50,411 bases of DNA, from positions 1 to 50,411 of the IMG/VR virus record IMGVR_UViG_3300009059_000018; one strand, written 5' to 3'. This stretch comes from a virus. Below, in pieces: positions 7,481 to 46,280 of this stretch; within the stretch, counting starts at the first letter, position 1; every line of letters starts with the position of its first letter. The notes beneath the pieces are model-generated. The model ran no database searches, was not told the origin of the DNA, and was given only the letters and a program-made list of their open reading frames with translations. A program made the position numbers and the translations under genes.

Positions 7481-8118
7481 CACTTACTTTCGTTATATGT
7501 ATTTTCCCAATGAGTTCTTTTGTTGTACATAAGTATATCATGTTCTCCCATTGCTGTCATGTCTAGGCTCCACTTTCCATCTATTTCTTTTAGTGGATTT
7601 GGCCCGAGTTCACCTTGTACAGCATCTTCTGCGTAAAAGTGTGCGAAGATCATGTCTACGAATTCACCGTCAGAGAAGTTTGTCTTTGTTCTCCAATGGA
7701 TTTGATTAGTTCCAGAAAAAGTAAGTGCCTGGTTGTCCTTTAGTGTGTACTCCCTGCCCTCAACAACAATTGGCCAGTCTCTATTTGAACCTAGCTGAAT
7801 GTCAAATGTGAGGCGTGGTTCTCTAAATACCTCGTCCCAATGTGGTGGTAGTTGTACTGGAAGGTCTTCCTCAAATATCGCATACCTGGCGAAAGATAAC
7901 TCGCCTAGAACAATCTTTCTATCTGTTGTAGACTGCGCTGCTTTTGTTATAGACTCTACAATGTTTTCTGGCATCCAACTGTGATAGGCCTTATGAGAGA
8001 AGATCCTCATAACCTGTTGTCTATCTTTTGGGGTATTATTAATATGATCGTATATTTGACTAATCTCGTCATCTGTAAATATTTTATCCACAATAACGTT
8101 AGGTTGGTTGTAGTCCAT
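7480..8118 (-). CDS. 2OG-Fe(II) oxygenase-like protein (paralogue A)
   Basis: This 212-residue protein shows the double-stranded beta-helix metal triad order: H93-x-D95 in LPPHWDE, then H141 and R143 in NQIHWRTK, which would bind Fe(II) and 2-oxoglutarate. It shares several features with the next gene upstream: the LPPHxD motif, an N/D-x-DW turn about 20 residues later, and an F-S-x-x-N-Q-x-H block, so the two are paralogues. The substrate is unknown; candidates are proteins, nucleobases or small molecules. Its start overlaps the neighbour by one base. Catalytic activity is inferred from spacing of residues, not proven. Confidence 0.7.
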   Translation of the reverse strand: MDYNQPNVIVDKIFTDDEISQIYDHINNTPKDRQQVMRIFSHKAYHSWMPENIVESITKAAQSTTDRKIVLGELSFARYAIFEEDLPVQLPPHWDEVFREPRLTFDIQLGSNRDWPIVVEGREYTLKDNQALTFSGTNQIHWRTKTNFSDGEFVDMIFAHFYAEDAVQGELGPNPLKEIDGKWSLDMTAMGEHDILMYNKRTHWENTYNESK

Positions 8119-8912
8119 TATGCATTCTCCTTAAGAATTCCATGTATCTCTGCTGGTATGCCCTGCTTAAGGCCCAGCTCGTTGTAAAGAGTCCAAGATT
8201 TTTGCATCTTGGGGTGTTCCGATAGTTTAGACAGATACTCCTGGACCCTATCCTGAAACTTTACTGGATCTAGGGGATAGTCTTGCTTTAAGAACCTCCA
8301 GTCATTCAAGGGTGAATAGTCAAATGTTAAAATTTTAACAAACTCGCCCTCTTGCCACTTTCTTTTTGGCCTAAAGTGTGGCTGGTTAATTGCACTAAAT
8401 ATTAGGGCATCGCCCTTTTTAAGATTGTATGGTTTTTCATCTACATAAATATCCCAATCTATATTTCCATCAAGCATGTAGTTGAATGTTAAAATAGTAT
8501 TTGTATTATCTATGTGTGGTGGAAGTGATGGAAGAAACTTTCCCTCACCGTGTCTGGGGTCATAGTCGATATAGCTGTAATGGCACAGCCTCAAGTCTTC
8601 GCTATATAGCTTTTTGACGTATGAATCCATTACAGATTCAATTTCTTTTGGAGCTTCAAACTCTACCATCTCCCTAGACATGTGGACTACCTTCTTTGGA
8701 TCATACCAGTTTTTGCCTCGATACTCTTCCTGCCCTCCTGGTACCAAGTAGAACTCTGGCTCAGAAGCTAGCAATGTTTTAAATATCGATTCTAGACTAT
8801 CTACTTGCTCATTAGAAAATGGCTTTGTAACGTAGATTGGAATGTCTTCATTATACTGGGACTTATCCTCTGACAAGTAGTCCCACATGCCTGGAGCGGT
8901 AAATTTTTCCAT
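8118..8912 (-). CDS. 2OG-Fe(II) oxygenase-like protein (paralogue B), predicted leaderless
   Basis: The 264-residue protein has H133-x-D135 in LPPHIDN and H179 with R181 in NQPHFRP, the expected iron and 2-oxoglutarate ligands, within a run of short beta strands (ILTFNYMLDGNIDWDIYV, GDALIFSAINQ). It is a longer paralogue of the gene that follows it. The start codon lies exactly six bases after a TATAAT element, so its mRNA may lack a leader; there is no Shine-Dalgarno in those six bases. The -10 element overlaps the stop codon of the exonuclease gene. The substrate cannot be read from sequence. Confidence 0.72.
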   Translation of the reverse strand: MEKFTAPGMWDYLSEDKSQYNEDIPIYVTKPFSNEQVDSLESIFKTLLASEPEFYLVPGGQEEYRGKNWYDPKKVVHMSREMVEFEAPKEIESVMDSYVKKLYSEDLRLCHYSYIDYDPRHGEGKFLPSLPPHIDNTNTILTFNYMLDGNIDWDIYVDEKPYNLKKGDALIFSAINQPHFRPKRKWQEGEFVKILTFDYSPLNDWRFLKQDYPLDPVKFQDRVQEYLSKLSEHPKMQKSWTLYNELGLKQGIPAEIHGILKENA

Positions 8913-8918
8913 GGTTTA

Positions 8919-8927
8919 ATTATACCA
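8919..8927 (-). promoter_or_regulatory. Extended -10 promoter, leaderless spacing, for 2OG-oxygenase gene
   Basis: The minus strand reads TGGTATAAT, followed by six bases (TAAACC) and the ATG at 8912. A start about 7 bases after the hexamer falls on the A of ATG. No good TTGACA-like -35 is seen at 16-18 bases, as is common with TGn-extended -10 elements. The TAA inside TATAAT is also the stop codon of the upstream exonuclease gene. Confidence 0.6.
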
Positions 8928-10987: not shown

Positions 10988-13900
10988 TTATGTCCTCCAA
11001 AATAACTGTTCCGTCTTTAGTCTTTCCAAAAGAAAAGTTGTATGCGTTACCCTCTTTAATTTTCATGTAAGCCTTTGCAAACGTTGTAGGGAATACTGTG
11101 ATTGAATGTAACTCTCTAGATGTGTCAGCTACTGTCATAGATGCCATCTTCTTTCCTGCCTTTGTTACCCTTGGCTTAAATGATACGACATACATCTCAT
11201 CATCCTTATAGGGAAGCTGCTTATAGTTTAGGTATTTTACTAGGGATGACTCTACCTTACCCAAGTCGTCTATCTGAATATGACTAACAATCCTGTTATC
11301 GCTAGCCAGTAGCAAATACGTGCGACCTGGCTCAACTGTGGTTTGCTCTTCATCAAATATCCCCACGCTTCCTGTCTTATCTAAGATCTCTACCCTTGAC
11401 CATCCTGGCCCTCTCTTGATTGACTTTGCCATACCCATCAGAACATATGACCCCTTTTCCTCAAACTCGTCTACGTCATTAATAAATGCGTAGAAGTGCT
11501 GAGGAACAGAAATGTTAAATTCTGGTAGGTTTAGGTAGTCATAAAGATTCTCCCTGATCTCCTGATCATTCCTTGGATTATCTTGAAAGGTAGCTGCCCC
11601 AACAAGCTTTAGAGCAGATAGGGCTCGGCTATTAACCCCACTGCCTTTACTAAATGTAAACTCTTCTAGCTCTGCATAGGAACTAAATGGTCGCTTCTCG
11701 ATAAACTTAGCAGCGATGTTATCTGAAATATACTTAATTCCTGTCATTCCAAACCTGATACCCTTGCCTTCAATCTTAAAGTCAGCATCTGAGTCATTAA
11801 TATGTGGCAACTTAATGCTAATCCCCATTCTCTTTGCCTCAATAAGGTACTCCGTACGAGCATCCTTATCCTTTTCATTCTTTAGCATTGAGTACATAAA
11901 CTCTAGTGGGTAGTATGCTTTTAGCCATGCTGTCCAGTAAGAAAGTGTAGAGTAGGCTACCGCATGTGACTTATTAAACGAATACCCTGCGTGAGCCTCA
12001 AAGTCTGTCCATAGCTCTGTGGCAGAGTTTGGAGACATAAACTGGGAGGCACCCTTGACAAACCTATCCTTAAACTGATCAAACTCTTTAGCATCTTTTT
12101 TCTTACCAATAATCTTACGAACTTTATCAGCTTCTGCCATAGACATTCCACCTAGCTCTGTACAAGCCTGCATTACCTGCTCCTGGTAAAGGATACAACC
12201 ATAAGTCTCTGCTGTGAATGCCTTCATCACTTGGTGGTGATATGCAATGTTTTGCTTACCATGCTTACGAAGGATATAATCCTTGCCAATAGTATTCATA
12301 GCTCCTGGACGAACTAGAGCGTTAGAAGCAGCTAACTCTGCAAAGTTCTTTACACCCATCTTTACGAGCAAGTTTGTATATGGGGTTGCCTCACACTGAA
12401 AAACACCCTTTGTAAAGCCGTCAGAGAGCATCTGATAGACTTTTGAGTCTTCCATGTCTACAGATAGGAGGTCAATCTTCTTGCCCTCACGCTGCTCTAT
12501 AGTGGTTAGAGTGTCTTTAAGAACACTGAGTGTCTTAAGACCAAGAGCATCAATCTTAATAAGGCCAATACGCTCTGCCTCTTCCATGTCTACACCTACA
12601 ACTGGAATACGCTCCTTGGTTCCTGGAGCTGTTCTGGTTTCTAGTGGAGCATACTTAAAGATAGGTGACTTAGATGTAACAACACCTGCGGCGTGAATTC
12701 CTGTACCACGAATTCTACCACGAAGCTGTTCTCCGTAACGCTCAATCTCTGGATACTTCTCTCGGAACCATGCTGCTTGCTTTGACCTGCAGTAGTCTTC
12801 CCAGGTGTCAATAACCTTCATAACCTTGTTTACATCTGTTAGAGGAATGTTGAGAACACGTGCGATATCCCTTACAACGCCTTTATCTTTAAACTTTAGA
12901 AATGTTGCAATAGATGCTACGTGCTTGTACTGTCTAACTAGATAATCCTTTACCTCATCACGCCTTGAATCCTGAATGTCGGTGTCGATATCTGGAAAGT
13001 CATTACGTTCTGGGTTAATAAACCTAAAGAAAAGCAGTCCATGGACAATAGGATCAATATCGGTAATCCCTAGTGCATAGCATAGAAGTGAGCCTGCAGC
13101 AGATCCACGACCTGGCCCTACCATGATGCCTTCTTTTTTAGCCCATGCAATCATGGATCTAACAACAAGGAAGTATGGGCCAAAGTTCTTATCCTGAATA
13201 ATCTTTAGCTCTTCGTCTAGCCTAGCTAGGTACTCGTCTGTATGGATTCCTCGCTCCTTGAGGCCAGCAACTGCTAGCTCGTAGAGTTCTTTGTCTGGTT
13301 CCTGATACTGTACTGGAAGCAGATCTAGGTGGTCTTGAATATCATAATCCTCAACCTTATCCGATACCTCTTGAGTTGCTGCATACATATCTTCTCTATC
13401 GATGCCCTGCGCCAGCATAGCTGATCGCATCTCTTCGTCTGATAGCAAATGAATGTCAAACTTGGTAAAGGTTATTTGTCTTTCTCCATACAGATAGTCA
13501 AGCCTATCCATTAGGTTATCATGCTTTAAAGACTTTTCGTAGGTAGCACCTTTTTCTACCTTATTAGAGTAGCTGTTTAGAATCAGCTTTAGCTCTTGAA
13601 TCTCTTTCTGCCCCTTATCAGAGTGGTGGCAGTCTGGAGTAACAATTGGAGTTACCTGGTATTTATCTGCTAGATCAAGCAGCTGCTTGTTTACCTCTGG
13701 GGGATTGTGTGGCATTACTTCAATGTAGAAGTCGTCTTTGAATACACGCTTGTGCCACTCAATAATTCGCTTAGCTTCTGCAAGCTCTTCAGCCTCGATA
13801 GCTTTCGCTAGGGCACCAGAGAGGCACCCAGAAAGGACAATAAGTCCCTCTGAGTACTTCTCTAGAACCTCATAGTCGAAGCGTGGTTTCTTGAAGAAGC

Positions 13901-14937: not shown

Positions 14938-15882
14938 TTATTGTAGCATAGCTGATATTGATTTGTCAAATGACATCTCTATGTTTCTGATGTCTTCATC
15001 ATTCATCTCACCTATATCTTTGTATTGTTTATCTAGTTGAATCACGGTTACACGAGAGCTTAGCTTTTCATATATTCTAGTCTTCATGTTACCGCCTGCC
15101 TCATCATTGTCTGCAACAACATAAATGTTATTGAAGTATTTTTTTAGCAAGTCTATTTGAAAGTTTGAAACGTTTGCGCCTAGTGTAGCTACTGCTGGTA
15201 TACCACACTGATCTAACCTAATTGCATCGAAAGAAGATTCTACCACATAGACACTATCTTCATTTTTCACTCTGTGTAGGTTAAAGAGAACTTTTGCTTT
15301 TGGCAGGCCTGGAGTATTTTTGAATACCTTGCCCTCTACAGACCTTCCAACAAAACCAACGGGGGTTCCGTCAGGTGCTGAAACTGGCACAGTTACCATA
15401 TCTTGCTTTTCAGAGTATCCAAGCTTAAATTTGGCCATTGATTCTTTTGTGATCTGTCTGCCAGCAAAGTATGAGACAGCTCTGTCATTAATAAGAGCTT
15501 CTTCACCCAGCCTTATGATTGTATCCTTGTCGTAAGGTACGTAGTCTGGCTTGATAATCAAAGCCTTATTGACATCAGTTTCAATATTTGTTTGCTGCTC
15601 TCTAGTCTTAATAAACCTAACAGACTCAAAGTAGGTTCTGGCTGTTGCATGCATGACAAGCTCCACAAGGCTTGCTACGTGGTGGCAAGAAAAACAGAAG
15701 AATGTACCCTTAAACTTGTCTACTTCTCCAGCTGGTGTTCTATGGTTTGGGTGAAATGGACAAAAAAGGATGTAGTCAGTATCAATCTCGGTCTCTACTG
15801 TGAGGCCTGAACCTGTGAGAACTCGTTTGATTTGATCTGGTGAGTATGTATCACCTTTGACCCGTCTATTCCTAGTATCCAT
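14938..15882 (-). CDS. DnaG-type DNA primase
   Basis: The 314-residue protein has a CHC2-type zinc finger (C41-P-F-H44 and C63-F-S-C66) followed by a TOPRIM domain: VVESSFDAIRLD holds the catalytic Glu and VVADNDEAGG the D-x-D pair. It synthesises RNA primers and is next to the DnaB-type helicase. It is much shorter than bacterial DnaG and seems to lack the C-terminal helicase-interaction domain. The ATG at 15882 lies 88 bases inside the upstream gene; there is no alternative ATG, GTG or TTG before the zinc finger, so the overlap is probably genuine. Confidence 0.88.
   Translation of the reverse strand: MDTRNRRVKGDTYSPDQIKRVLTGSGLTVETEIDTDYILFCPFHPNHRTPAGEVDKFKGTFFCFSCHHVASLVELVMHATARTYFESVRFIKTREQQTNIETDVNKALIIKPDYVPYDKDTIIRLGEEALINDRAVSYFAGRQITKESMAKFKLGYSEKQDMVTVPVSAPDGTPVGFVGRSVEGKVFKNTPGLPKAKVLFNLHRVKNEDSVYVVESSFDAIRLDQCGIPAVATLGANVSNFQIDLLKKYFNNIYVVADNDEAGGNMKTRIYEKLSSRVTVIQLDKQYKDIGEMNDEDIRNIEMSFDKSISAMLQ
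14940..14948 (-). promoter_or_regulatory. Promoter-like element before the SSB gene
   Basis: The minus strand reads TGCTACAAT, one mismatch from the TGnTATAAT element seen elsewhere in this window. The predicted start near 14933 would leave a leader of about 20 bases containing AGGAGA before the ATG at 14912. The element overlaps the last codons and stop of the primase gene. Confidence 0.4.
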
Positions 15883-16127
15883 TCGCTTTTTCTTTTCCCT
15901 ACGTAAATTCCATATACAGATATTTCAAACTGAAAGTATCTTGCTTTTTCATTATAGCTTGTTGTGAAGTCTAAGTCAATATCCAATCTTGGAACGTATC
16001 CAGACATTCTCATGCTAGTCCAAAGCAACCTTACGTACTCTGCCTTTAGACGGACAATCTGAGAGTCATCGTGAATGATTCCACTTAGACCAAATTTCTT
16101 TATTGGTTTATGATGTACATAACTCAT
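15795..16127 (-). CDS. Unknown protein between helicase and primase, predicted leaderless
   Basis: The 110-residue protein has a helical first half (VRLKAEYVRLLWTSMRMSGY) and a beta-rich second half (LDIDLDFTTSY, KARYFQFEISVYGIYVG). I recognise no catalytic motif. Its ATG lies exactly six bases after TATAAT, which itself starts next to the stop codon of the helicase gene, so it may begin a leaderless transcript. Its last 88 bases overlap the primase coding region in another frame, the longest overlap of confident genes in the window. A replication-accessory role is inferred from position only. Confidence 0.75.
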   Translation of the reverse strand: MSYVHHKPIKKFGLSGIIHDDSQIVRLKAEYVRLLWTSMRMSGYVPRLDIDLDFTTSYNEKARYFQFEISVYGIYVGKRKSEWILGIDGSKVIHTHQIKSNEFSQVQASQ

Positions 16128-16133
16128 GTAACA

Positions 16134-16139
16134 ATTATA
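16134..16139 (-). promoter_or_regulatory. -10 element with leaderless spacing before the helicase-downstream gene
   Basis: The minus strand reads TATAAT, six bases (TGTTAC), then the ATG at 16127. The upstream triplet is TAG, so the TGn extension is absent here. The first bases follow directly on the helicase stop codon. Same spacing as four other genes in this window. Confidence 0.5.
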
Positions 16140-18443: not shown

Positions 18444-18884
18444 TTAGTTCGGAATACCTATAGCAATGACATTTACGGATACAGATACTTCACCAGAAGT
18501 TCCAAACCTTACTAAGCCTTCAACTCTAGACGTAGTGATTGATGTCAGGATAACTGAGACGTCCTTACCAGCTGGAGTGCCACCCACGTTAACCAGAGTA
18601 GCTGTGGCTACTGGCGAATACTTAAAGTCTGCGGGGAAATCATAGAAAAAAGACTTTTCATTTCCAGCAGTAATAATACTGTTATTCGCAACTGGAATGA
18701 TTCCACCTAGAACCTTGGCATCTGACGTACGAATACTTTGCTTTCCAGTAGGAGTGTCTAGTGTTGTATACTTCGCTGAAGAAGGAATAACGCTTGCTGA
18801 TAAATCATTAATAGCATTAGCTAACTGGTAGACATATGCAAGATCTAGAGGTTGTCCTCGTTCTGGTAGTGGAATAATAGCCAT
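18444..18884 (-). CDS. Small tail/structural protein, predicted leaderless
   Basis: The 146-residue protein has an N-terminal stretch typical of phage tail accessory proteins (LDLAYVYQLANAINDLSASV) and a beta-rich C-terminal domain (SFFYDFPADFKYSPVATATL, then alternating strands) like the small jelly-roll or H-type-lectin-like folds on phage tails. The ATG is exactly six bases after a TGGTATAAT element. It is the last gene of the tail block. A carbohydrate-binding or fibre role is possible but not shown. Confidence 0.72.
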   Translation of the reverse strand: MAIIPLPERGQPLDLAYVYQLANAINDLSASVIPSSAKYTTLDTPTGKQSIRTSDAKVLGGIIPVANNSIITAGNEKSFFYDFPADFKYSPVATATLVNVGGTPAGKDVSVILTSITTSRVEGLVRFGTSGEVSVSVNVIAIGIPN

Positions 18885-18890
18885 AGATTA

Positions 18891-18899
18891 ATTATACCA
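18891..18899 (-). promoter_or_regulatory. Extended -10 promoter, leaderless spacing, last tail gene
   Basis: The minus strand reads TGGTATAAT, six bases (TAATCT), then ATG at 18884. The TAA within TATAAT is the stop codon of the upstream Fn3-like gene (…GTA TAA). No Shine-Dalgarno fits in the six-base gap. Confidence 0.6.
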
Positions 18900-33189: not shown

Positions 33190-33513
33190 CTACTTATTAG
33201 GTAGAGTGCCACCCATGGCATCTGTCATATTAATTCCAGAGGCCTCTTCAATAATCCTATAGACGGTTGGCAGGTCTATATTGTCTTCTAATGCTTTGAT
33301 GTCTCCTGCGATTTCAGGACTGTACTGTTTCATTGCAATTTGAACGCAAGCCATCAAAATGTTCATTGATTTATCATTATCATCTGCTACATCTGCAATT
33401 CCTTCAAACTTCTTCGTAAAATCACGAAGCAAAGAAATCTTCAATGGTCGCACATTAATTTCTGTCCCATCAATTAGCTTCAAAACCTTGTTTTCATTAA
33501 CGGTTGTAGCCAT
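33190..33513 (-). CDS. Tail assembly chaperone, short paralogue
   Basis: The 107-residue protein is similar along its whole length to the first half of the 222-residue gene upstream: both have a [LI]DGT strand, PLKI-x-x-LRDF, a helix with QIAM[KR]QY and PEIA. It is a gpG-type tail chaperone, which coats the tape measure during tail assembly. The start has an AGGAAGAGGAGA Shine-Dalgarno and follows its own TGGTATAAT promoter, so it may be made in excess over the long form. Its stop leaves only 22 bases before the tape measure, so no downstream T-type extension could be read by frameshifting. Confidence 0.8.
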   Translation of the reverse strand: MATTVNENKVLKLIDGTEINVRPLKISLLRDFTKKFEGIADVADDNDKSMNILMACVQIAMKQYSPEIAGDIKALEDNIDLPTVYRIIEEASGINMTDAMGGTLPNK

Positions 33514-33549: not shown

Positions 33550-33558
33550 ATTATACCA
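33550..33558 (-). promoter_or_regulatory. Extended -10 promoter before the short tail chaperone
   Basis: The minus strand reads TGGTATAAT between the two chaperone genes. The expected start near 33543 gives a leader of about 30 bases with a strong GGAAGAGGAGA Shine-Dalgarno before the ATG at 33513. It would raise expression of the short chaperone and tape measure relative to the long chaperone. Confidence 0.55.
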
Positions 33559-33572
33559 TACAAAGCTTTATT

Positions 33573-34241
33573 TTAGCTGATTCTTTCGTACTCCAGGCCC
33601 ATACCAATGCCGAAACCAGCCTCTTGAGCCTTGGTGCCTTTAAGGGATGTGACATCCTTTGTGTCTTCTTCTTTGGCACCGAATACCTTATCTTTTAGCT
33701 TAGTCCACTCGTCTTGCCTTGGAGCACCCTCATCTAGGTCTACGCCCTGTATAGCAGCCAGGAACTTCTTGTCAGCAGAGTCTGCCTCATTCTTTGACTC
33801 AAGAATGGCTATGAGCTCTGGCATAGATATTGATGTTTCTAGGTCATGGTAGTCTTTCCAGATACCCAGCAAAAATGCTCTAGACTCCAGACCAACAAGA
33901 TCCAGATCTGACCAGCTTGAACCATCATCATTACTCTCTTCTGAGCCTGATGACTTTCCAAAAGATATTCCACCCGCTATCTGAACGACCTCATACATAG
34001 TGCTGATGTCCATCAAGTCTTCAACCTGATATGATGTTGCTATCTCGGGCAAATATTGCCTCATAGCTATTGCAACACAGTCTACTAATACCTGGATCTT
34101 TTCGTCTTCTGTAGATGCAGAAACAACATCTTCAAACCTGTCCATAAAATCTCTCAGATAGAATATCTTGAGGGGTGTTATATATAGGCTAGTACCGTCT
34201 AATAGCTCTATGTTTGAGCTTTTATATACTTTATTAGCCAT
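33573..34241 (-). CDS. Tail assembly chaperone, long form, predicted leaderless
   Basis: The 222-residue protein has an N-terminal chaperone domain (residues about 1-100, including PLKIFYLRDF and MRQYLPEIA) continued in the same frame by an acidic Ser-rich linker and a C-terminal domain (RAFLLGIWKDYHDLETSISM; end GFGIGMGLEYERIS) of the kind that other siphoviruses add by programmed frameshift. Here it is one open frame, followed by a separate short paralogue. The ATG lies exactly six bases after TGTTATAAT, itself placed directly behind the terminator after the major tail gene. Confidence 0.8.
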   Translation of the reverse strand: MANKVYKSSNIELLDGTSLYITPLKIFYLRDFMDRFEDVVSASTEDEKIQVLVDCVAIAMRQYLPEIATSYQVEDLMDISTMYEVVQIAGGISFGKSSGSEESNDDGSSWSDLDLVGLESRAFLLGIWKDYHDLETSISMPELIAILESKNEADSADKKFLAAIQGVDLDEGAPRQDEWTKLKDKVFGAKEEDTKDVTSLKGTKAQEAGFGIGMGLEYERIS

Positions 34242-34247
34242 AATACT

Positions 34248-34256
34248 ATTATAACA
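34248..34256 (-). promoter_or_regulatory. Extended -10 promoter, leaderless spacing, behind a terminator
   Basis: The minus strand reads TGTTATAAT, six bases (AGTATT), then ATG at 34241. The TGT is reached immediately after the terminator T-run, so termination and re-initiation are packed within about 50 bases. Confidence 0.6.
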
Positions 34257-34287
34257 AAAAACTGCCCCAGCCGTAGCCAGGGCAGTT
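34255..34287 (-). terminator. Strong intrinsic terminator after the major tail gene
   Basis: On the minus strand a 12-pair stem, AACTGCCCTGGC (34287-34276) with GCTGGGGCAGTT (34271-34260), has two G-U wobbles and encloses the loop TACG closed by C and G, which is the unusually stable cUNCGg tetraloop. A T-run follows (34260-34256 plus the last stem Ts). It should stop most transcription of the abundant major tail message. Confidence 0.85.
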
Positions 34288-38153: not shown

Positions 38154-39275
38154 TTAAGCGTCAGCCGCAGCATCTGCATAAGCGATGGCGTCTTCCTCTT
38201 CCCACTGAATACCGAAACGTACGAATACGGTGTACTCAATGGTGTCCTTCTTAGCCTTGTACTCACGGTTTACAGTGATGTCTCTCTGGAAACCCCATAC
38301 ACGGTTCTCTGGGAATGTCAAGTCAACATATCCAGCTGGGTAGTAAGGAACTTCCTGAACCTCAATACCTAGAACACGAGTAGTGCGAGCACCACCGAAT
38401 GTCTGAGCATTGCCAGCTAGGTACGCATCGCGACCTGCTGGTGTACCTGCAGCGCCTGCGTGAGAGCCAAAGGCCTCAGCAATTGCATCTGCAAGTGTTC
38501 CGTTGTTCTTTACGATGCCCTGGAATACGTCGGTACCTGCATAGAACTTTAGGTTGTTCTTGATTGCACGGTACTTACGTGGCATTGCCAAGATGATGTT
38601 CTGCATAACCTCTGGGGTCCATGCACCGTTTGCAACAGTAACAACAGACTCGTGTGATCCACCAGTCTTTGCCTTGTTAACAAAACCATCCATGATGGAC
38701 AGGAAGTTTCCTGTTGCTCCATCACCGTTAATAGCTAGGTCTTCGATGTCATTTGCAAATGCATTTGTCATTAGACGTACTAGGTGGTCCTCAAGGGCTG
38801 CGCCCTCGACACCATCTTCGAGAGACTCAGCTGAGACCTCCCAGTCAAGACGGATCTTCTTTGTAGTAAGCTCCACCTTTGTAAATGACGCACCAGTGTT
38901 GGTGTAATCACCTGTTGCCTGTGCTGCTGCACGGATAACACGCTCTCCAACATTGACCTTCTCGAGCTCCATTGTGTTTGCACGCATAGTTACACGGCGT
39001 CCATCTTTGGCGAGGACAGTTGCATCCCATACGTAGTCAATAAAACGACGTGCCTGTTCAGGGCGTAGGATACCGCTACCAGTATCACCTGAAGGATTCA
39101 CCGCGTTACCACCAGATGTTAGTCCCATGCTTGCGGTTGGGATGTTACCCAGTGTGCTTGCACCTGGATCTGTTACACCACCAATACCACCAGATGCGAA
39201 TGCACCTTCACCATTGTATAGACCTGAATCAGCTCCTAGAGCATCTGGATTGTTTTTGATAATCTCTTCCGACAT
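38154..39275 (-). CDS. Major capsid protein
   Basis: The 373-residue protein has an N-terminal Gly/Ser-rich stretch (GALGAD-type, residues 1-70) that may be the protease-removed delta region, then a helix (ILRPEQARRFIDYVWDATVL), the P-domain and A-domain pattern of HK97-fold capsids (LRLDWEV-like strand, EDHLVRLMTNAFANDIEDLA, VPYYPAGYVDLTFPENRVWG) and a C-terminal strand rich in aromatic residues. It follows the protease-scaffold gene and has the strongest Shine-Dalgarno of the region (TAGGAGGTGA). The terminator at 38094-38133 ends its message. Confidence 0.9.
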   Translation of the reverse strand: MSEEIIKNNPDALGADSGLYNGEGAFASGGIGGVTDPGASTLGNIPTASMGLTSGGNAVNPSGDTGSGILRPEQARRFIDYVWDATVLAKDGRRVTMRANTMELEKVNVGERVIRAAAQATGDYTNTGASFTKVELTTKKIRLDWEVSAESLEDGVEGAALEDHLVRLMTNAFANDIEDLAINGDGATGNFLSIMDGFVNKAKTGGSHESVVTVANGAWTPEVMQNIILAMPRKYRAIKNNLKFYAGTDVFQGIVKNNGTLADAIAEAFGSHAGAAGTPAGRDAYLAGNAQTFGGARTTRVLGIEVQEVPYYPAGYVDLTFPENRVWGFQRDITVNREYKAKKDTIEYTVFVRFGIQWEEEDAIAYADAAADA

Positions 39276-39930: not shown

Positions 39931-40689
39931 AGGATCTTCCTCCTTGTTCATCTTAGAAAGATTAATGCCTTTAGCACTATCAACTAAGAACTTTATCATT
40001 TCTGTTTTCTCGTTGTCATTTTTTTCAACGAAACCAATGTTTTTCATGGCATTACCATTTATGGGGCTAACTGCCGAGTCTTCTTCTGAAATAAGAACCA
40101 TACCAGAATCGTTATCCCAGAAAACATTTTCAATTTCTGTATCAAAGGCTTCACCTTTAACCATATCCACACCGTCAACTTTCTCAATAGACATGATGTT
40201 TGCAAACTGATTTGCAGGGGTATCTACCAGTGACAGTTCTACAAGGTCATACTCCTTGATAACTCTGATAGCTTTATCCATGTTCTCGTCATAAGCGTCG
40301 TCCCATTTGTTCATTCTTCCACCAATGGAAAAACCAGAAAGAGTTCCATCTAGAACCTTTTCCCAGGTGTCTTGAGCACCTTTTGAAACATATGCAGAAA
40401 CATATACTCCAGAATAAAACTTCTTTGATTCTGGATCAAAGTACTTTTCTTCTTTAAATGCTACCATTTTTCCAACTGCAAGTGGCTGGTGCATCTCTCT
40501 AATATTTCCTCGAAAGCGTGTGAATGCATCTACAGATGCTTCTGTAGTAACAATGTCATCCTGCCTATCCACATTGTCGAGTGTGGCAAAGCCAGATACA
40601 ATACGTCTCTCCTTGTCCACCTTACTGAAAGGCATGGACAGTCTAACGTTATCGCCATCTGTAATAAGCTGTGCTTTTGAAATAGTCAT
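39304..40689 (-). CDS. Prohead protease fused to scaffold protein
   Basis: The 461-residue protein joins two functions. Residues 1-170 form a prohead protease: FSKVDKERRIVSGFATLDNV, the catalytic His in REMHQP (H67) and a Ser in LSGFSIGG (S121), with DLVELSLVDTPAN after it. Residues about 230-461 form a scaffold: a very acidic segment (MEEKADDAETEEKSEDMEEE) and a coiled coil (AVVKSLNEQVAELKKSLDGA) ending in KTADLFN. The scaffold shapes the prohead and the protease then removes it and the capsid N-terminus. An internal start at 39930 could supply scaffold alone. A TATAAT lies eight bases before the ATG. Confidence 0.88.
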   Translation of the reverse strand: MTISKAQLITDGDNVRLSMPFSKVDKERRIVSGFATLDNVDRQDDIVTTEASVDAFTRFRGNIREMHQPLAVGKMVAFKEEKYFDPESKKFYSGVYVSAYVSKGAQDTWEKVLDGTLSGFSIGGRMNKWDDAYDENMDKAIRVIKEYDLVELSLVDTPANQFANIMSIEKVDGVDMVKGEAFDTEIENVFWDNDSGMVLISEEDSAVSPINGNAMKNIGFVEKNDNEKTEMIKFLVDSAKGINLSKMNKEEDPMTEENTNAAEDAVVEKSDEIAPEADAVVEAAESVVEKADEAEVAKTDDMDEDDMEEKADDAETEEKSEDMEEEDDKSYDEKSDASEAVVDAAEVSKSNDVTAAVAELQSGITSAFSDLSAVVKSLNEQVAELKKSLDGANAEIKSVKDEVTASKSEFNEFGKRFAAVEADTAFRKSGDLGEVVQETESDMVQKSLWGGRFLKTADLFN

Positions 40690-40697
40690 ACTAGTTT

Positions 40698-40703
40698 ATT
40701 ATA
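40698..40703 (-). promoter_or_regulatory. -10-like element before the protease-scaffold gene
   Basis: The minus strand reads TATAAT eight bases before the ATG at 40689 (two bases more than the exact leaderless spacing seen elsewhere). There is no Shine-Dalgarno in the gap. A leaderless or very short-leader transcript is possible. Confidence 0.4.
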
Positions 40704-40741: not shown

Positions 40742-42343
40742 TTATTCAGAAGATGCTCCCTCTCCCTGTGCATTACGTCCAGATATTGTTGCTGATCCAT
40801 CGGACTGGTTGTTAGTCCTCTCTGCATCACGCGCTCTATTCCCTGCTAGATTTGCTCTAGCATCTGTTGACTGTCTTGGCGACATGTCAAATACTTCATC
40901 TCCTCCAGCACGCTGTGGAAGCCCTAGAGACTCTCTTGCTTCGTTAGGAGTCATAACCTGTGTCTTAATGTATCGTTCTAGGATCTGTGACTGAGCAATC
41001 TCATCTGTAAGTGTTAGCTCATTAAACTTAAATTCTAGCAGGTCAGTCTTTTCACGAACCAAGCGATTAATCATCTTCGCAAGGTTTGTTTGTGCTGGTC
41101 GTGCTACCTGCTCTTTAAAGGTTCGATCTTGTGACAAGGCTGCAGCAATGGATGATGCATCAGCACCACCAATTTTTGACAATGGTACTTGGTGTGCAAC
41201 TAGGATATCATCCCTGTTTCGAAGCCTGTAATCATTAAACGACGCTTCTTGCACTCCGTTTTCAATTGGCTCCATCTTAAACTCTACCTTATTATTATCT
41301 GAATCTCCAGGTAGAGGAATATACAGCGTTCTGTGATTTTGACCCTTAAGGCTTGTTTGCAAAAATCTAAATAGCTTGTCCTCTGCATCTCCAGATAGCT
41401 TTGCACCCTTTAGAGTTACGATGTACCTAGGAGTTGCCTTATTTGCAAAGTAGTCAATGTTATACTGACTTGCTAGCTGATCTCCCTGTAGAGATGAAAT
41501 AGCTGACATGATATCTGGAATGCCATAAAAAGTATTTAGTGGTGAGTATTCCTTGTAGTGAAGAATCTCGTTTGGTCTTGGGTCAGTAGTGATTGGGTTC
41601 TGATTCTTTGCCCCGAAGTTTCTAAAGTAAACAACCTTCTGGCCAATGATCTGAACATATCCATCTCTTAGTCTACGGACACGCATTGTTGTAGCAGGAA
41701 TATGACCCAGGTAACCAATTTCACCGTTAGTCTTTCGTCCCACCTCAAGATATCCGTTACCAGTTGACTGAACATCTGTAAAAAACTTCATTAGTGTGTG
41801 AGTCACTGAGTCATCCTGATTAAGACTCTCAAGCCACTCTGTCAACTCTAGACGAGCTCGCTCTATTCTTTTTCGTGCTTTTTCTGTTGCAGTCTCATTT
41901 GTGTTTGACTCTAGTTGCATCAGCGCACGCTTGCCTATAGAAAAGTCATAACCTAGACCAACAATGTTTTCTACCTTTGCGTCAATAGCAGCATGGTTAG
42001 CAAAAGATGTGTCGTAGAAGTTTGCTAGCTCATAAAGATTCCATGGTGGAGTGATAACGTCAAACATTCCATATCCATTATGATAGACAGATCCTGGATT
42101 AATCTCCTTAGAGCTTGCTCCCTGCCCAGTTCTTACAGCACCAGCTGAAGCTAGGTATCTATCTGTTGGCTCAACAGCAACTGCTTTTGCCATTCGTGTG
42201 GCACGACGCTTAAAGTTGGCATCAATTCCGCTAAGAGACTTTAGGTTATCCCAGGTTTTATTAAATGGGTCTTTAGCCTTAAACTCATTTGGTTCTGGGT
42301 CAAACTCGCCCATCCTGGCATTAATAATATATTCTTGAGACAT
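40742..42343 (-). CDS. Portal protein
   Basis: The 533-residue protein shows the PBSX/HK97-type portal plan: an N-terminal region with YHNGYGMFDVITPPWNLYEL, a helix-rich core (ANHAAIDAKVENIVGLGYDF), a clip region (ILHYKEYSPLNTFYGIPDIM), and a long Gln/Ala-rich stem (VAHQVPLSKIGGADASSIAA). The end is a Gly/Ser-rich tail (SATISGRNAQGEGASSE). Portals form the dodecameric gate for packaging and connect to adaptors. The gene overlaps its small upstream neighbour by one base. Confidence 0.93.
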   Translation of the reverse strand: MSQEYIINARMGEFDPEPNEFKAKDPFNKTWDNLKSLSGIDANFKRRATRMAKAVAVEPTDRYLASAGAVRTGQGASSKEINPGSVYHNGYGMFDVITPPWNLYELANFYDTSFANHAAIDAKVENIVGLGYDFSIGKRALMQLESNTNETATEKARKRIERARLELTEWLESLNQDDSVTHTLMKFFTDVQSTGNGYLEVGRKTNGEIGYLGHIPATTMRVRRLRDGYVQIIGQKVVYFRNFGAKNQNPITTDPRPNEILHYKEYSPLNTFYGIPDIMSAISSLQGDQLASQYNIDYFANKATPRYIVTLKGAKLSGDAEDKLFRFLQTSLKGQNHRTLYIPLPGDSDNNKVEFKMEPIENGVQEASFNDYRLRNRDDILVAHQVPLSKIGGADASSIAAALSQDRTFKEQVARPAQTNLAKMINRLVREKTDLLEFKFNELTLTDEIAQSQILERYIKTQVMTPNEARESLGLPQRAGGDEVFDMSPRQSTDARANLAGNRARDAERTNNQSDGSATISGRNAQGEGASSE

Positions 42344-42726
42344 TATCCCTCATCTCCATATGCAGCAAGAGATTGCTTTGCAGCAATAACTGCACCGAGG
42401 TCATTCATGCTAGGGATAAGCCCCTCTTTCATCCTGTCAACTTGCTCTGAGTATTCTTCATCAGTTACTCTAGCTGTTCCAGGGAAAAATACTGCCTTGC
42501 CTTCTGGCTCTCCATGAAATCTTGCAGCTTCTTCTAGCTTTTGGATTTGACTTTGGTCGCCCTTGTTTGCTGGAATGTTAAGAACATTTCCGCTACCATC
42601 TGTAAAAAACTTACCATTTGACTTTTGCCAGGCATAGATGCCCCAAGCATATCCAGACTTTGGCATCATTGTTAGCTTAGCACTCTTTAGTGCTTGCTCC
42701 ATAGCATCAGGCTTTTCTTTATTCAT
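42343..42726 (-). CDS. Small protein preceding the portal, predicted leaderless
   Basis: From the ATG at 42726 the protein has 127 residues (MNKEKPDAMEQALKSAKLTM). An in-frame start 18 bases earlier would lie inside the TATAAT element and add WYNSV, so 42726 is preferred; it is exactly six bases after TGGTATAAT. The sequence has SGYAWGIYAWQKSNGKFF and a helical C-terminus (RMKEGLIPSMNDLGAVIAAK). Such proteins occur ahead of portals in other actinophages without known function. The stop shares one base with the portal start. Confidence 0.75.
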   Translation of the reverse strand: MNKEKPDAMEQALKSAKLTMMPKSGYAWGIYAWQKSNGKFFTDGSGNVLNIPANKGDQSQIQKLEEAARFHGEPEGKAVFFPGTARVTDEEYSEQVDRMKEGLIPSMNDLGAVIAAKQSLAAYGDEG

Positions 42727-42732
42727 GACACT

Positions 42733-42741
42733 ATTATACCA
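42733..42741 (-). promoter_or_regulatory. Extended -10 promoter, leaderless spacing, start of the head module
   Basis: The minus strand reads TGGTATAAT, six bases (AGTGTC), then ATG at 42726. A TTGTTT hexamer 16 bases upstream is a modest -35 candidate. The element begins two bases after the stop codon of the upstream LamG-like tail gene, so it marks the boundary between fibre and head modules. Confidence 0.62.
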
Positions 42742-42743
42742 CA

Positions 42744-45700
42744 TTAAACTGGAGAAACAACCCTAGAGGACCATTCTGCACCAATATATGCACGATAAGC
42801 ATAATTTTTAAATGATAAAGTACTAGAGTCGGATACAATAAACTTGTTTGTTCCTATATATGCCTTATATATTGACTCTAAATCGATCAAATATTGCTTT
42901 GTTGTAGGAATATATAAGACATTTTCCCAAGTAATTGCGGGAACTTGTGACAAAAAGTCTCCCCAGGTAGCTGGATTTATTCCTATGGAGTCTAGCATGC
43001 TCTCAAGCTCAGCCCAGGTTCTAAACTTTGTCGTCACACCAGTCTTATCAGATGTTATCCTGTATGATGATACTGAGTCTACAGATATATTACCAACTAC
43101 ATTTAAGTTACCAGTAAATGCATCAAACACGAAGCTTTCTGCTGATTGAATACCAATAACTGACCATTCGTTAGGAATTAAATACCCTGAGGAAACAAGA
43201 CTACCATTTAGATAAACAGAGAGTCCTCCAACTGGCTGGCCATCAATATCTGTAAAGTATAGCCTACCCCTTGAACCACTATCATTGTCTGCAACGACAT
43301 ATCCATACACAGACTTGTTGTATGCCTGAATTTCCAAGATTCTTTCTGGTGTTTGATTAAACGAGAGGGCATTGTATTTTGTAAATAGCTGAATGGCACC
43401 AACTCTATACGACAAAGACTGCTCTGTATTAATTGGAAAAGATATTCCTCTATAGTCAGATGTCTCTCCAAGAAGCCTTATGCCTCCGTCGTCTGTCAGG
43501 TATAGGTAGGGTGTGGAGTTCTTGTAAATTTGTACAGGATTATTGCCGCTATAGTTGTTATATATTCCGCTTTTTAGGTATGGGTAAATTGATGTCCCCA
43601 GCTTTGTCTTAATTGCGGTTAGCTGGGTAAGCTCGTTTGCCTGAGATGCTATCTGTAGTGATTTAATTTTAACCTGCGATGACTCAATTCCAGGAATAGT
43701 TGCTTCTATGTGTATTACTATGGCTATCTTGCCAAAGTCTACCCCAGAAGGTGGAAAGACAACTGTTCCGTCAACAAACTCATACCTTGTTGATGTCCAC
43801 TCTGATCCTGGAGAAATTGTTTTACTGATTGGAGCTGGAGCAACATTAGCAATGTTTTCAGATAAGGTGTTTGGGTTATTACCCATGTACTGAAATGACA
43901 CATAGGTCCTTACAGAAGCATTTTTAGTATCAAAGCTCTCTCCATTAGTTGAGTATACAATTGGATTATCAATATTAAGCTGAAGGTAGCTAAGTCTATA
44001 AGACGAGTCTCCATCTGCATCAGATACTGTTTTTGCAAAATATTGTAGCGGAATATAGTCTTGCCAAGAAGAGTCTACCGAGACATCTATTCCAAATGAC
44101 CCTAGGTACTCTCTAGGTATAACAGTATAGCTAGCTGTGTGACTGTAGAGCTGTGCTGTTGTAAAAGATGTGGGATCTCCTCCGTCAAGAAAGTCTGTTA
44201 TTGTTGTATTGTAATCTCCACCGTAAATTTCTTCAGCACCATCATACTGATTAAATACGTTCTCTATGTTTGAGAGAGTTCCTGAGGAATTAAAATATGA
44301 GCTAATCTTTTGCAAATTTCTCTTTGTAGACAAACCTACTCTATAAAGTTTTCCAGTAAAACCATTTAAGAAGTCTACATCTGAGCCTACAGACATTCTT
44401 AGGGTGCTCTTAGATCCAAAGAATGTTGCAACCTTAGATCCATAAACAGATGAAAACTTATCTATATCAATTCCTGCAGATGTAGCCAACCCAACAGTAT
44501 GTTGGGAGTCTGATACTACCGTTGTTATCTCTCCACCATAACTCAGAGTATAGAGGATCTGTGTTCCACTTATAGATATTCTGAAATAGTTCTTGGTGAC
44601 AGAATCTTCAATTTTTAAAATTGTTTGCTCTGCATCATCATTAGACCTAAATACAACGTATAAAGCTTTTAGGTCTTGGCTTAATACATTTAGCGTGTTA
44701 AAGAATAAGTATCCACCGTTTGATCCATCTAGGGAAAGATTAACAAACGCCTTTGGGTCTGTTGATGACGCATTAGCAGATGAATTAGCTACCAGCCAAG
44801 ATGCTTCCGTTGTATCTTTCAAAATTATCTCTGGTGACGAGTAAGTCGGTGCAGCGAGAATATTTGTATCTACAGAAAGATTTTCAACTATGCCCTGGTT
44901 CCATCTAGCCATATCTGGATATAGATAGTTGTTGGCATATTCTGAGTTTCTATAATCAATAATTGCAGAGGACCCTCCGAAAGAACTATTGTTGCTCTCT
45001 GGATACTCTACACCTTGGCCATATACAAACCTTCTCTTAGCCACAACTTCTGGTACAGAGTATGGATATATTGCTGGTGACTCAATCTCAAAGTATAGCA
45101 AGCTAGAGCTTCCATAAATGCCCAGCCAATCCTGGCTTTTTCCGTAGTATGTAGATGATAGATTGTTATTTTTAGATAGTGGCAAGTTTAAATTATTGCT
45201 ATCCACTGAAATAGATGAAACCTGCTCTCCATTAACAAGTAGGCTGATAGAGTTTTGAACCAATCGAATATGGATCAGCATAGGTCTGCCCCAATTACCA
45301 ACAAAATGCGAAATAGTTTCACTATCCACCTTTAGCGTGAGGAACTGCCCATCTACATACAGACCGTCATCGGATGATATCGGACCAAATATCTTTACTG
45401 GGGAATATGATGATGTGGAAATTCTCATCCAGAATTCAAACGTCATATTCTTATTTCTTCCAGAATCATTTAAGAATCCAAATCCTGGAAGTACTACTGA
45501 TGGTCCAGAAATGTCTGGTCTAATTTTTGTAGCATTAGACGATCCATAAACTATCGGTAGCCCATCGTTATAAGCATTTAGCTGATTATCTGAAGCAGTA
45601 TAGTATCCAGGATTTACTTTCAGACCATAGGCTGGTGCCTGGATTGCCTGAACATCTGCCAAGGCTATGTCTGAATTTGTCATTGAGTATAGGCTTGTAG

Positions 45701-46280
45701 TAGATACTCCAGAGGTTGTTGTGTTCTGATTCTCACTCCATTGTGCCATAGAGATACCATTAATATGACAAGTGTAGTCTCCAACTGATGAAGCATTAAC
45801 CTTTATAACTACACGAAGATTTTCTACAGTAGCTGGTATTTCGAATGTCTTAGACAGAAATGCCCAAACTCCAGTTCCAGATATTGAAAAGTTTTCTGTG
45901 ACTTGAGTCACTGTGCCATCAGTATACTCATATCCAAGGTCAACAGACGTTATAGCTGAGTTTTGTGAATAAAAGTATGATGAAATATTAAAGTTTTTCT
46001 TTGAAGGATCTAGGCTAGACGCGGCTATAATATCTGGGCTTATGGCAGTCAGCTGGTCTGAAGAAGCGGTGTCTAGCTGAATGGTTGGTGATACTGTTGG
46101 CTTTGATACATTAGATAGATTACTAGAAGAATAGGTTCCTCCTGATATTGACCAAGAAGTCAGTTTTTTATCATCTGAGGATAGTAGTGATAAAAAGCTA
46201 GCGGAGTCGTCTAACGGCCAAAGAGCTAATGGATGCTCTGAAAATACTTTCTCAGCATAAAGGTTAGACGGTTGTGACAT
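42744..46280 (-). CDS. Large LamG-like tail fibre / minor tail protein
   Basis: The 1178-residue protein starts MSQPSNLYAEKVFSEHPLAL, then WPLDD, a start common to phage proteins with laminin-G/concanavalin folds. Two jelly-roll-like regions are visible: near residues 280-430 (MTFEFWMRISTSSYSPVKIF; ISLLVNGEQVSSISV) and near 500-670 (LKALYVVFRSNDDAEQTILK; YFRISISGTQILYTLS). The C-terminus has FRTWAELESMLDSIGINPAT. It probably binds surface glycans. It lies upstream of the portal, away from the main tail genes, with an AGGAGAA Shine-Dalgarno. Confidence 0.78.
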   Translation of the reverse strand: MSQPSNLYAEKVFSEHPLALWPLDDSASFLSLLSSDDKKLTSWSISGGTYSSSNLSNVSKPTVSPTIQLDTASSDQLTAISPDIIAASSLDPSKKNFNISSYFYSQNSAITSVDLGYEYTDGTVTQVTENFSISGTGVWAFLSKTFEIPATVENLRVVIKVNASSVGDYTCHINGISMAQWSENQNTTTSGVSTTSLYSMTNSDIALADVQAIQAPAYGLKVNPGYYTASDNQLNAYNDGLPIVYGSSNATKIRPDISGPSVVLPGFGFLNDSGRNKNMTFEFWMRISTSSYSPVKIFGPISSDDGLYVDGQFLTLKVDSETISHFVGNWGRPMLIHIRLVQNSISLLVNGEQVSSISVDSNNLNLPLSKNNNLSSTYYGKSQDWLGIYGSSSLLYFEIESPAIYPYSVPEVVAKRRFVYGQGVEYPESNNSSFGGSSAIIDYRNSEYANNYLYPDMARWNQGIVENLSVDTNILAAPTYSSPEIILKDTTEASWLVANSSANASSTDPKAFVNLSLDGSNGGYLFFNTLNVLSQDLKALYVVFRSNDDAEQTILKIEDSVTKNYFRISISGTQILYTLSYGGEITTVVSDSQHTVGLATSAGIDIDKFSSVYGSKVATFFGSKSTLRMSVGSDVDFLNGFTGKLYRVGLSTKRNLQKISSYFNSSGTLSNIENVFNQYDGAEEIYGGDYNTTITDFLDGGDPTSFTTAQLYSHTASYTVIPREYLGSFGIDVSVDSSWQDYIPLQYFAKTVSDADGDSSYRLSYLQLNIDNPIVYSTNGESFDTKNASVRTYVSFQYMGNNPNTLSENIANVAPAPISKTISPGSEWTSTRYEFVDGTVVFPPSGVDFGKIAIVIHIEATIPGIESSQVKIKSLQIASQANELTQLTAIKTKLGTSIYPYLKSGIYNNYSGNNPVQIYKNSTPYLYLTDDGGIRLLGETSDYRGISFPINTEQSLSYRVGAIQLFTKYNALSFNQTPERILEIQAYNKSVYGYVVADNDSGSRGRLYFTDIDGQPVGGLSVYLNGSLVSSGYLIPNEWSVIGIQSAESFVFDAFTGNLNVVGNISVDSVSSYRITSDKTGVTTKFRTWAELESMLDSIGINPATWGDFLSQVPAITWENVLYIPTTKQYLIDLESIYKAYIGTNKFIVSDSSTLSFKNYAYRAYIGAEWSSRVVSPV

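Follow-up and report, generated by a model that had tools for sequence, protein, structure and literature searches.

The question raised by this locus is why, in five genes of one phage, the ATG lies exactly six bases downstream of a TATAAT hexamer. The window, that is the whole stretch of 50,411 bases that was analysed, is a virus record in which no tRNA genes were found, and its genes include those for a ribonucleotide reductase, terminase, DnaB-like helicase, UvsX-like recombinase, portal and head protease, together with that for a virion structural protein, which also matches major head proteins, though more weakly. Judged by DNA polymerase, chaperone and other genes, the nearest annotated relatives are the Stanwilliamsviridae, and these are distant. 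The DnaE-like polymerase has about 65-67% DNA identity with that of the Streptomyces phages in this family. A megablast search of phage records with the central part of the window found no matches. Relatives were therefore gathered through distant blastn, tblastn and viral contigs. The host is likely to be a low-GC actinobacterium.

A pattern search of the window returned TATAAT-N6-ATG five times, on the minus strand only, and the five starts reported in the initial annotation were all present exactly as described. The number expected from dinucleotide shuffles of the window was 0.83 +/- 0.87, and not one of the 100 shuffles contained five. TATAAT alone was not enriched (39 observed, 42 expected), so the excess lies in the position of the hexamer. 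As the pattern was chosen after reading the sequence, the shuffle result alone is modest evidence and it is conservation that decides. All five sites are genuine gene starts, each ATG opening an ORF of 110-264 amino acids with relatives in other phages, and the hexamer is preceded by a TGN extension at four of them. The initial annotation had also stated that the gap holds no Shine-Dalgarno (SD) sequence. This is true, but a 6-nt gap cannot hold a working SD, so the wider upstream region is the fair test; no SD-like sequence was found there either, and many other genes of the window have a clear SD. The elements concerned, with the predicted genes that they precede, are as follows.

8910-8924, 16125-16139, 18882-18896, 34239-34253 and 42724-42738, minus strand: the five TATAAT-N6-ATG sites
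8919-8927, minus strand: extended -10 (TGG-TATAAT) of the 8912 gene, with N6 kept in six relatives
8920-8922, minus strand: TAA stop of the upstream gene, inside the 8912 hexamer
8118-8912, minus strand: predicted leaderless gene, 264 amino acids, with a weak PHROG match to a family labelled ferrochelatase
16134-16139, minus strand: -10 (TATAAT) immediately following the stop codon of the DnaB-like helicase gene
15795-16127, minus strand: predicted leaderless gene, 110 amino acids, between the DnaB-like helicase and primase genes
18891-18899, minus strand: extended -10 (TGG-TATAAT) of the 18884 gene, with the upstream TAA stop (18892-18894) inside the hexamer
18444-18884, minus strand: predicted leaderless gene, 146 amino acids, no PHROG match
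34256-34285, minus strand: intrinsic terminator (CTGCCCTGGC-tacg-GCTGGGGCAG-TTTTTT) directly 5' of the next promoter
34248-34256, minus strand: extended -10 (TGT-TATAAT), beginning at the terminator T-run
33573-34241, minus strand: predicted leaderless tail assembly chaperone gene, 222 amino acids, identified by tblastn with the chaperones of Streptomyces phages Gilson and EGole
42733-42741, minus strand: extended -10 (TGG-TATAAT), within the short gap that follows the stop of gene 42744-46280
42343-42726, minus strand: predicted leaderless gene upstream of portal, 127 amino acids, start corrected from 42744 to 42726
40698-40703, minus strand: TATAAT 8 nt 5' of the head maturation protease start at 40689, a possible near-leaderless member
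33550-33555, minus strand: contrast case, TGG-TATAAT 36 nt before the SD-led start at 33513

We propose, and on the comparisons below consider it highly likely, that the five hexamers are -10 elements giving leaderless mRNAs. The hexamers, four of them as extended TGN-TATAAT, would be recognised by the main sigma factor of the host; RNA polymerase would initiate on the A of the ATG, some 7 nt beyond the hexamer, and actinobacterial ribosomes would initiate directly on the resulting mRNAs, which would have no 5' leader. In this model we infer the 5' ends, the sigma factor, leaderless translation and the identity of the host from sequence. Four of the promoters lie in tight gene junctions, so that their genes may also be read from an upstream polycistronic mRNA.

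To follow these sites in other phages, approximately 240 related viral contig loci were fetched and orthologous upstream regions were reduced to distinct sequences. A -10 was present at gap 5-7 in all 28 distinct regions upstream of 16127 orthologues, at gap 6 in 25 of 26 for 34241 and at gap 6-7 in 28 of 29 for 42726. In these three families it was mostly extended (TGN-TATAMT) and an SD was nearly always absent, although a looser SD motif scored in 14% of the 16127 and 42726 regions. The 8912 gene has few relatives, most of which keep gap 6. The -10 and its distance to the ATG were kept in orthologues with 43-90% protein identity despite changed flanking DNA, and the TG extension was conserved in the 18884, 34241 and 42726 families. 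Most other gene families had little or no leaderless-like arrangement; the head maturation protease gene (40689) had a -10 at gap 8 in 7 of 38 orthologous regions. The comparison strongly backs leaderless transcription of these genes, as the initial annotation had predicted, in so far as this can be read from the -10, its distance and the scarcity of SD sequences. Conservation of the hexamer and of N6 in relatives had been put forward as a check: the -10 did stay close to the ATG, but at a gap of 5-7 rather than exactly 6.

For the 42726 gene the window offers a second, in-frame ATG at 42744, 18 nt farther up. Most relatives read TGGTATACT-N7-ATG, with the stop of the upstream gene just before, and their counterpart of the 42744 ATG would lie 19 nt upstream and out of frame. 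The earlier proposal that the spacing corrects the start to 42726 therefore stands. Among the orthologues the TG columns were invariant and the hexamer columns near-invariant, and the isolated Streptomyces phages Francob and Annadreamy carry GGTATAAT-N7-ATG at this gene. We note that NGTGGTT is kept between the -10 and the ATG in most relatives, which is tighter than a leaderless start needs; the window reads AGTGTC at 42727-42732, unlike these relatives. The neighbouring gene 42744-46280 (1178 amino acids, no PHROG match) has an SD leader in the window; of its 37 distinct relatives, 15 are leaderless-like.

At 34241, 25 of the 26 distinct regions contained a GC-rich hairpin whose stems differ in sequence yet still pair (covariation), followed by T-rich sequence that runs directly into the -10, N6 and the ATG. 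The terminator probably limits read-through from the preceding tail gene, halting its transcription, and the promoter would then restart transcription for the tail assembly chaperone. The chaperone is encoded by a single 222-amino-acid ORF in the window, and in Gilson and EGole the two matching parts are separate ORFs.

The same -10 type also occurs farther 5' of the SD-led window genes 33513, 38055 and 48608, and for 33513 the far promoter was found in 90% and the SD in 93% of orthologous regions; N6 is thus the main mode in the window, and other arrangements exist. For a wider view, sites were defined as TGN-TA(T/C)A(A/C)T followed by a long ATG ORF, and the genes were grouped into 54 protein families because a raw histogram counts orthologues repeatedly. 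Members at gap 6 were found in 20 of the 54 families, at gap 7 in six, and at any other gap in no more than seven; the family-weighted count at gap 6 without an SD was 13.6. The distance from extended -10 to ATG was two-humped: starts without SD formed a sharp peak at 6(-7), and a second, broad hump at about 15-30 consisted largely of SD-led starts. Two of three altered control motifs gave no peak near 6, and the third (GT replacing TG) gave minor peaks at 6, 8 and 9, which is no surprise since such sites retain the hexamer. One -10 type thus has two placements, either leaderless or ahead of an SD leader.

A lead to the host came from Actinomycetota MAG contig RGSB01000058.1, which encodes a 75% identical relative of the virion protein at 38154-39275. 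Three genomes (GC 42-50%) from the family of the MAG that carries this related phage contig were examined; the contig may have been mis-binned with the MAG, so this reading of the host is supported, not proven. In these genomes TANNNT stood at a gap of exactly 6 before 22 of 188, 29 of 220 and 26 of 256 ORFs, against roughly 2-3 for most other gaps. Where TANNNT lay at gap 5-7, only 1 of 28, 2 of 45 and 2 of 30 starts had an SD, compared with 21-24% of all ORFs. TATAAT-N6-ATG proper had almost no matches in this probable host family, as the host uses the looser TANNNT. The phage thus seems to follow host practice, with ordinary sigma-70-type start-site selection on leaderless genes, as is general in actinobacteria. 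The idea of one precise spacing marking a designed class was not supported: the gap is 5-7 in relatives, almost half of the 18884 orthologues have an SD leader, and the N6 peak of the probable host family means that the phage spacing is the host spacing.

One alternative, which we regard as unlikely, is that the promoters are real but that some of them start transcription 1-4 nt to either side of the ATG, giving ultra-short leaders. Gaps of 5, 6 or 7 among relatives, and of 8-9 in some, would fit this; such variation is, however, within normal start-site scatter, and the peak at 6 is sharp in both the phages and the relatives of the probable host. A second explanation is that translation proceeds by coupling or reinitiation on long operon mRNAs, TATAAT being a by-product of TAA stops in AT-rich junctions. 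The 8912 and 18884 hexamers do contain the upstream TAA, those at 16127 and 42726 closely follow a stop, and at the four operon-like junctions translational coupling on a longer mRNA could serve too, which counts against leaderless initiation. In the 16127 family, however, flanks and stop codon vary, the stop lying elsewhere or reading TAG, while TATAMT keeps its distance; the 34241 site sits behind a terminator, outside any coding junction; the TG extension is conserved in three families; and host genes have the same spacing. A by-product of stop codons was rejected, and we consider the explanation as a whole improbable.

About as improbable is a promoter class peculiar to the phage and served by a sigma factor of its own, with the exact spacing setting apart a coordinated group of genes. 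The phage hexamers (TATAAT or TATACT, often with TG) are much nearer consensus than host TANNNT, and TATAMT was almost absent at gap 6 in host-family genes. This fits strong promoters; the same -10 type precedes SD-led genes of other modules, and the phage spacing equals that of the host, both of which argue against a separate class. An A-rich ribosome signal other than SD, as in Bacteroidetes, was rejected since plain SD genes are present in the phage and its relatives are actinophages. A merely accidental match between an AT-rich hexamer and five starts, which the post hoc choice of pattern and the unremarkable number of TATAAT might suggest, can be dismissed, being contradicted by the shuffles and by conservation across dozens of distinct upstream regions per family.

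Leaderless transcription as proposed here has to accommodate the 18884 family, in which a -10 at gap 4-8 without SD was found in 31 of 60 distinct regions; the remainder are mostly SD-led, usually with a -10 farther up, and leadered starts in nearly half of the relatives count against the model. When the leaderless label, assigned by simple rules that counted gap 4-9 as leaderless, was mapped onto a DnaB tree with 104 rows, parsimony required 10 changes against a shuffled mean of 32.7, and at least four of the changes were forced by well supported branches. Perhaps, and we offer this tentatively, this large phage group retains a fixed leaderless set over wide divergence, made up of the tail chaperone, pre-portal and primase-region genes, with repeated switching confined to another gene. 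If so, leaderless initiation would be selected gene by gene in phages, for example so that translation is maintained when infection alters ribosomes or initiation factors. The repeated switching of 18884 and the terminator-promoter unit before the chaperone gene offer natural experiments on why genes become leaderless.

The mRNA of lambda cI starts at its AUG and is thus, like those predicted for the window genes, a leaderless phage message, in that case from a single repressor gene in a host with rare leaderless genes. Leaderless mRNAs are already known in actinobacteria and have been predicted in actinophages. Leaderless genes, which account for more than 20% of the genes of Actinobacteria, are recognised by a TANNNT some 12 bp ahead of the start (Zheng et al. 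2011, PMC3160421), and for those of mycobacteria a 5' ATG or GTG is both required and sufficient (Shell et al. 2015, PMC4633059). As in those TA-led genes, the first T of the -10 lies here about 12 nt before the start, there is no SD and +1 is predicted to be at the start codon; the differences are that these are phage genes of several modules and that their near-consensus TATAAT is mostly TG-extended, whereas host TANNNT is loose. Leaderless mRNAs have been predicted for promoters PL1, PR2 and PL2 in five close genomes of Cluster O mycobacteriophages (PMC4351075) and for one gene of Adephagia (PMC11373665). Cluster O is another phage lineage, and its three promoters in close genomes compare with several families across wide divergence here.

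We found no report of leaderless starts for Stanwilliamsviridae in the literature, our coverage of which was incomplete. Members of this family (Gilson, EGole, Annadreamy and Francob) have DnaE, tail assembly chaperone, pre-portal and primase-region genes related to those of the window, in similar neighbourhoods, but the compared genes have only about 33-47% protein identity. Unlike in the window, the Streptomyces phages examined have an SD before the chaperone gene and no -10 at the 16127 orthologue, which also counts against the leaderless model. What the comparison adds is evidence that leaderless gene starts are systematic in a large actinophage group, most of it uncultured, and it yields one start-codon correction and exact predicted 5' ends in isolated Streptomyces phages; for Annadreamy gp23 the predicted 5' end is at its ATG, position 12792 of NC_048719.
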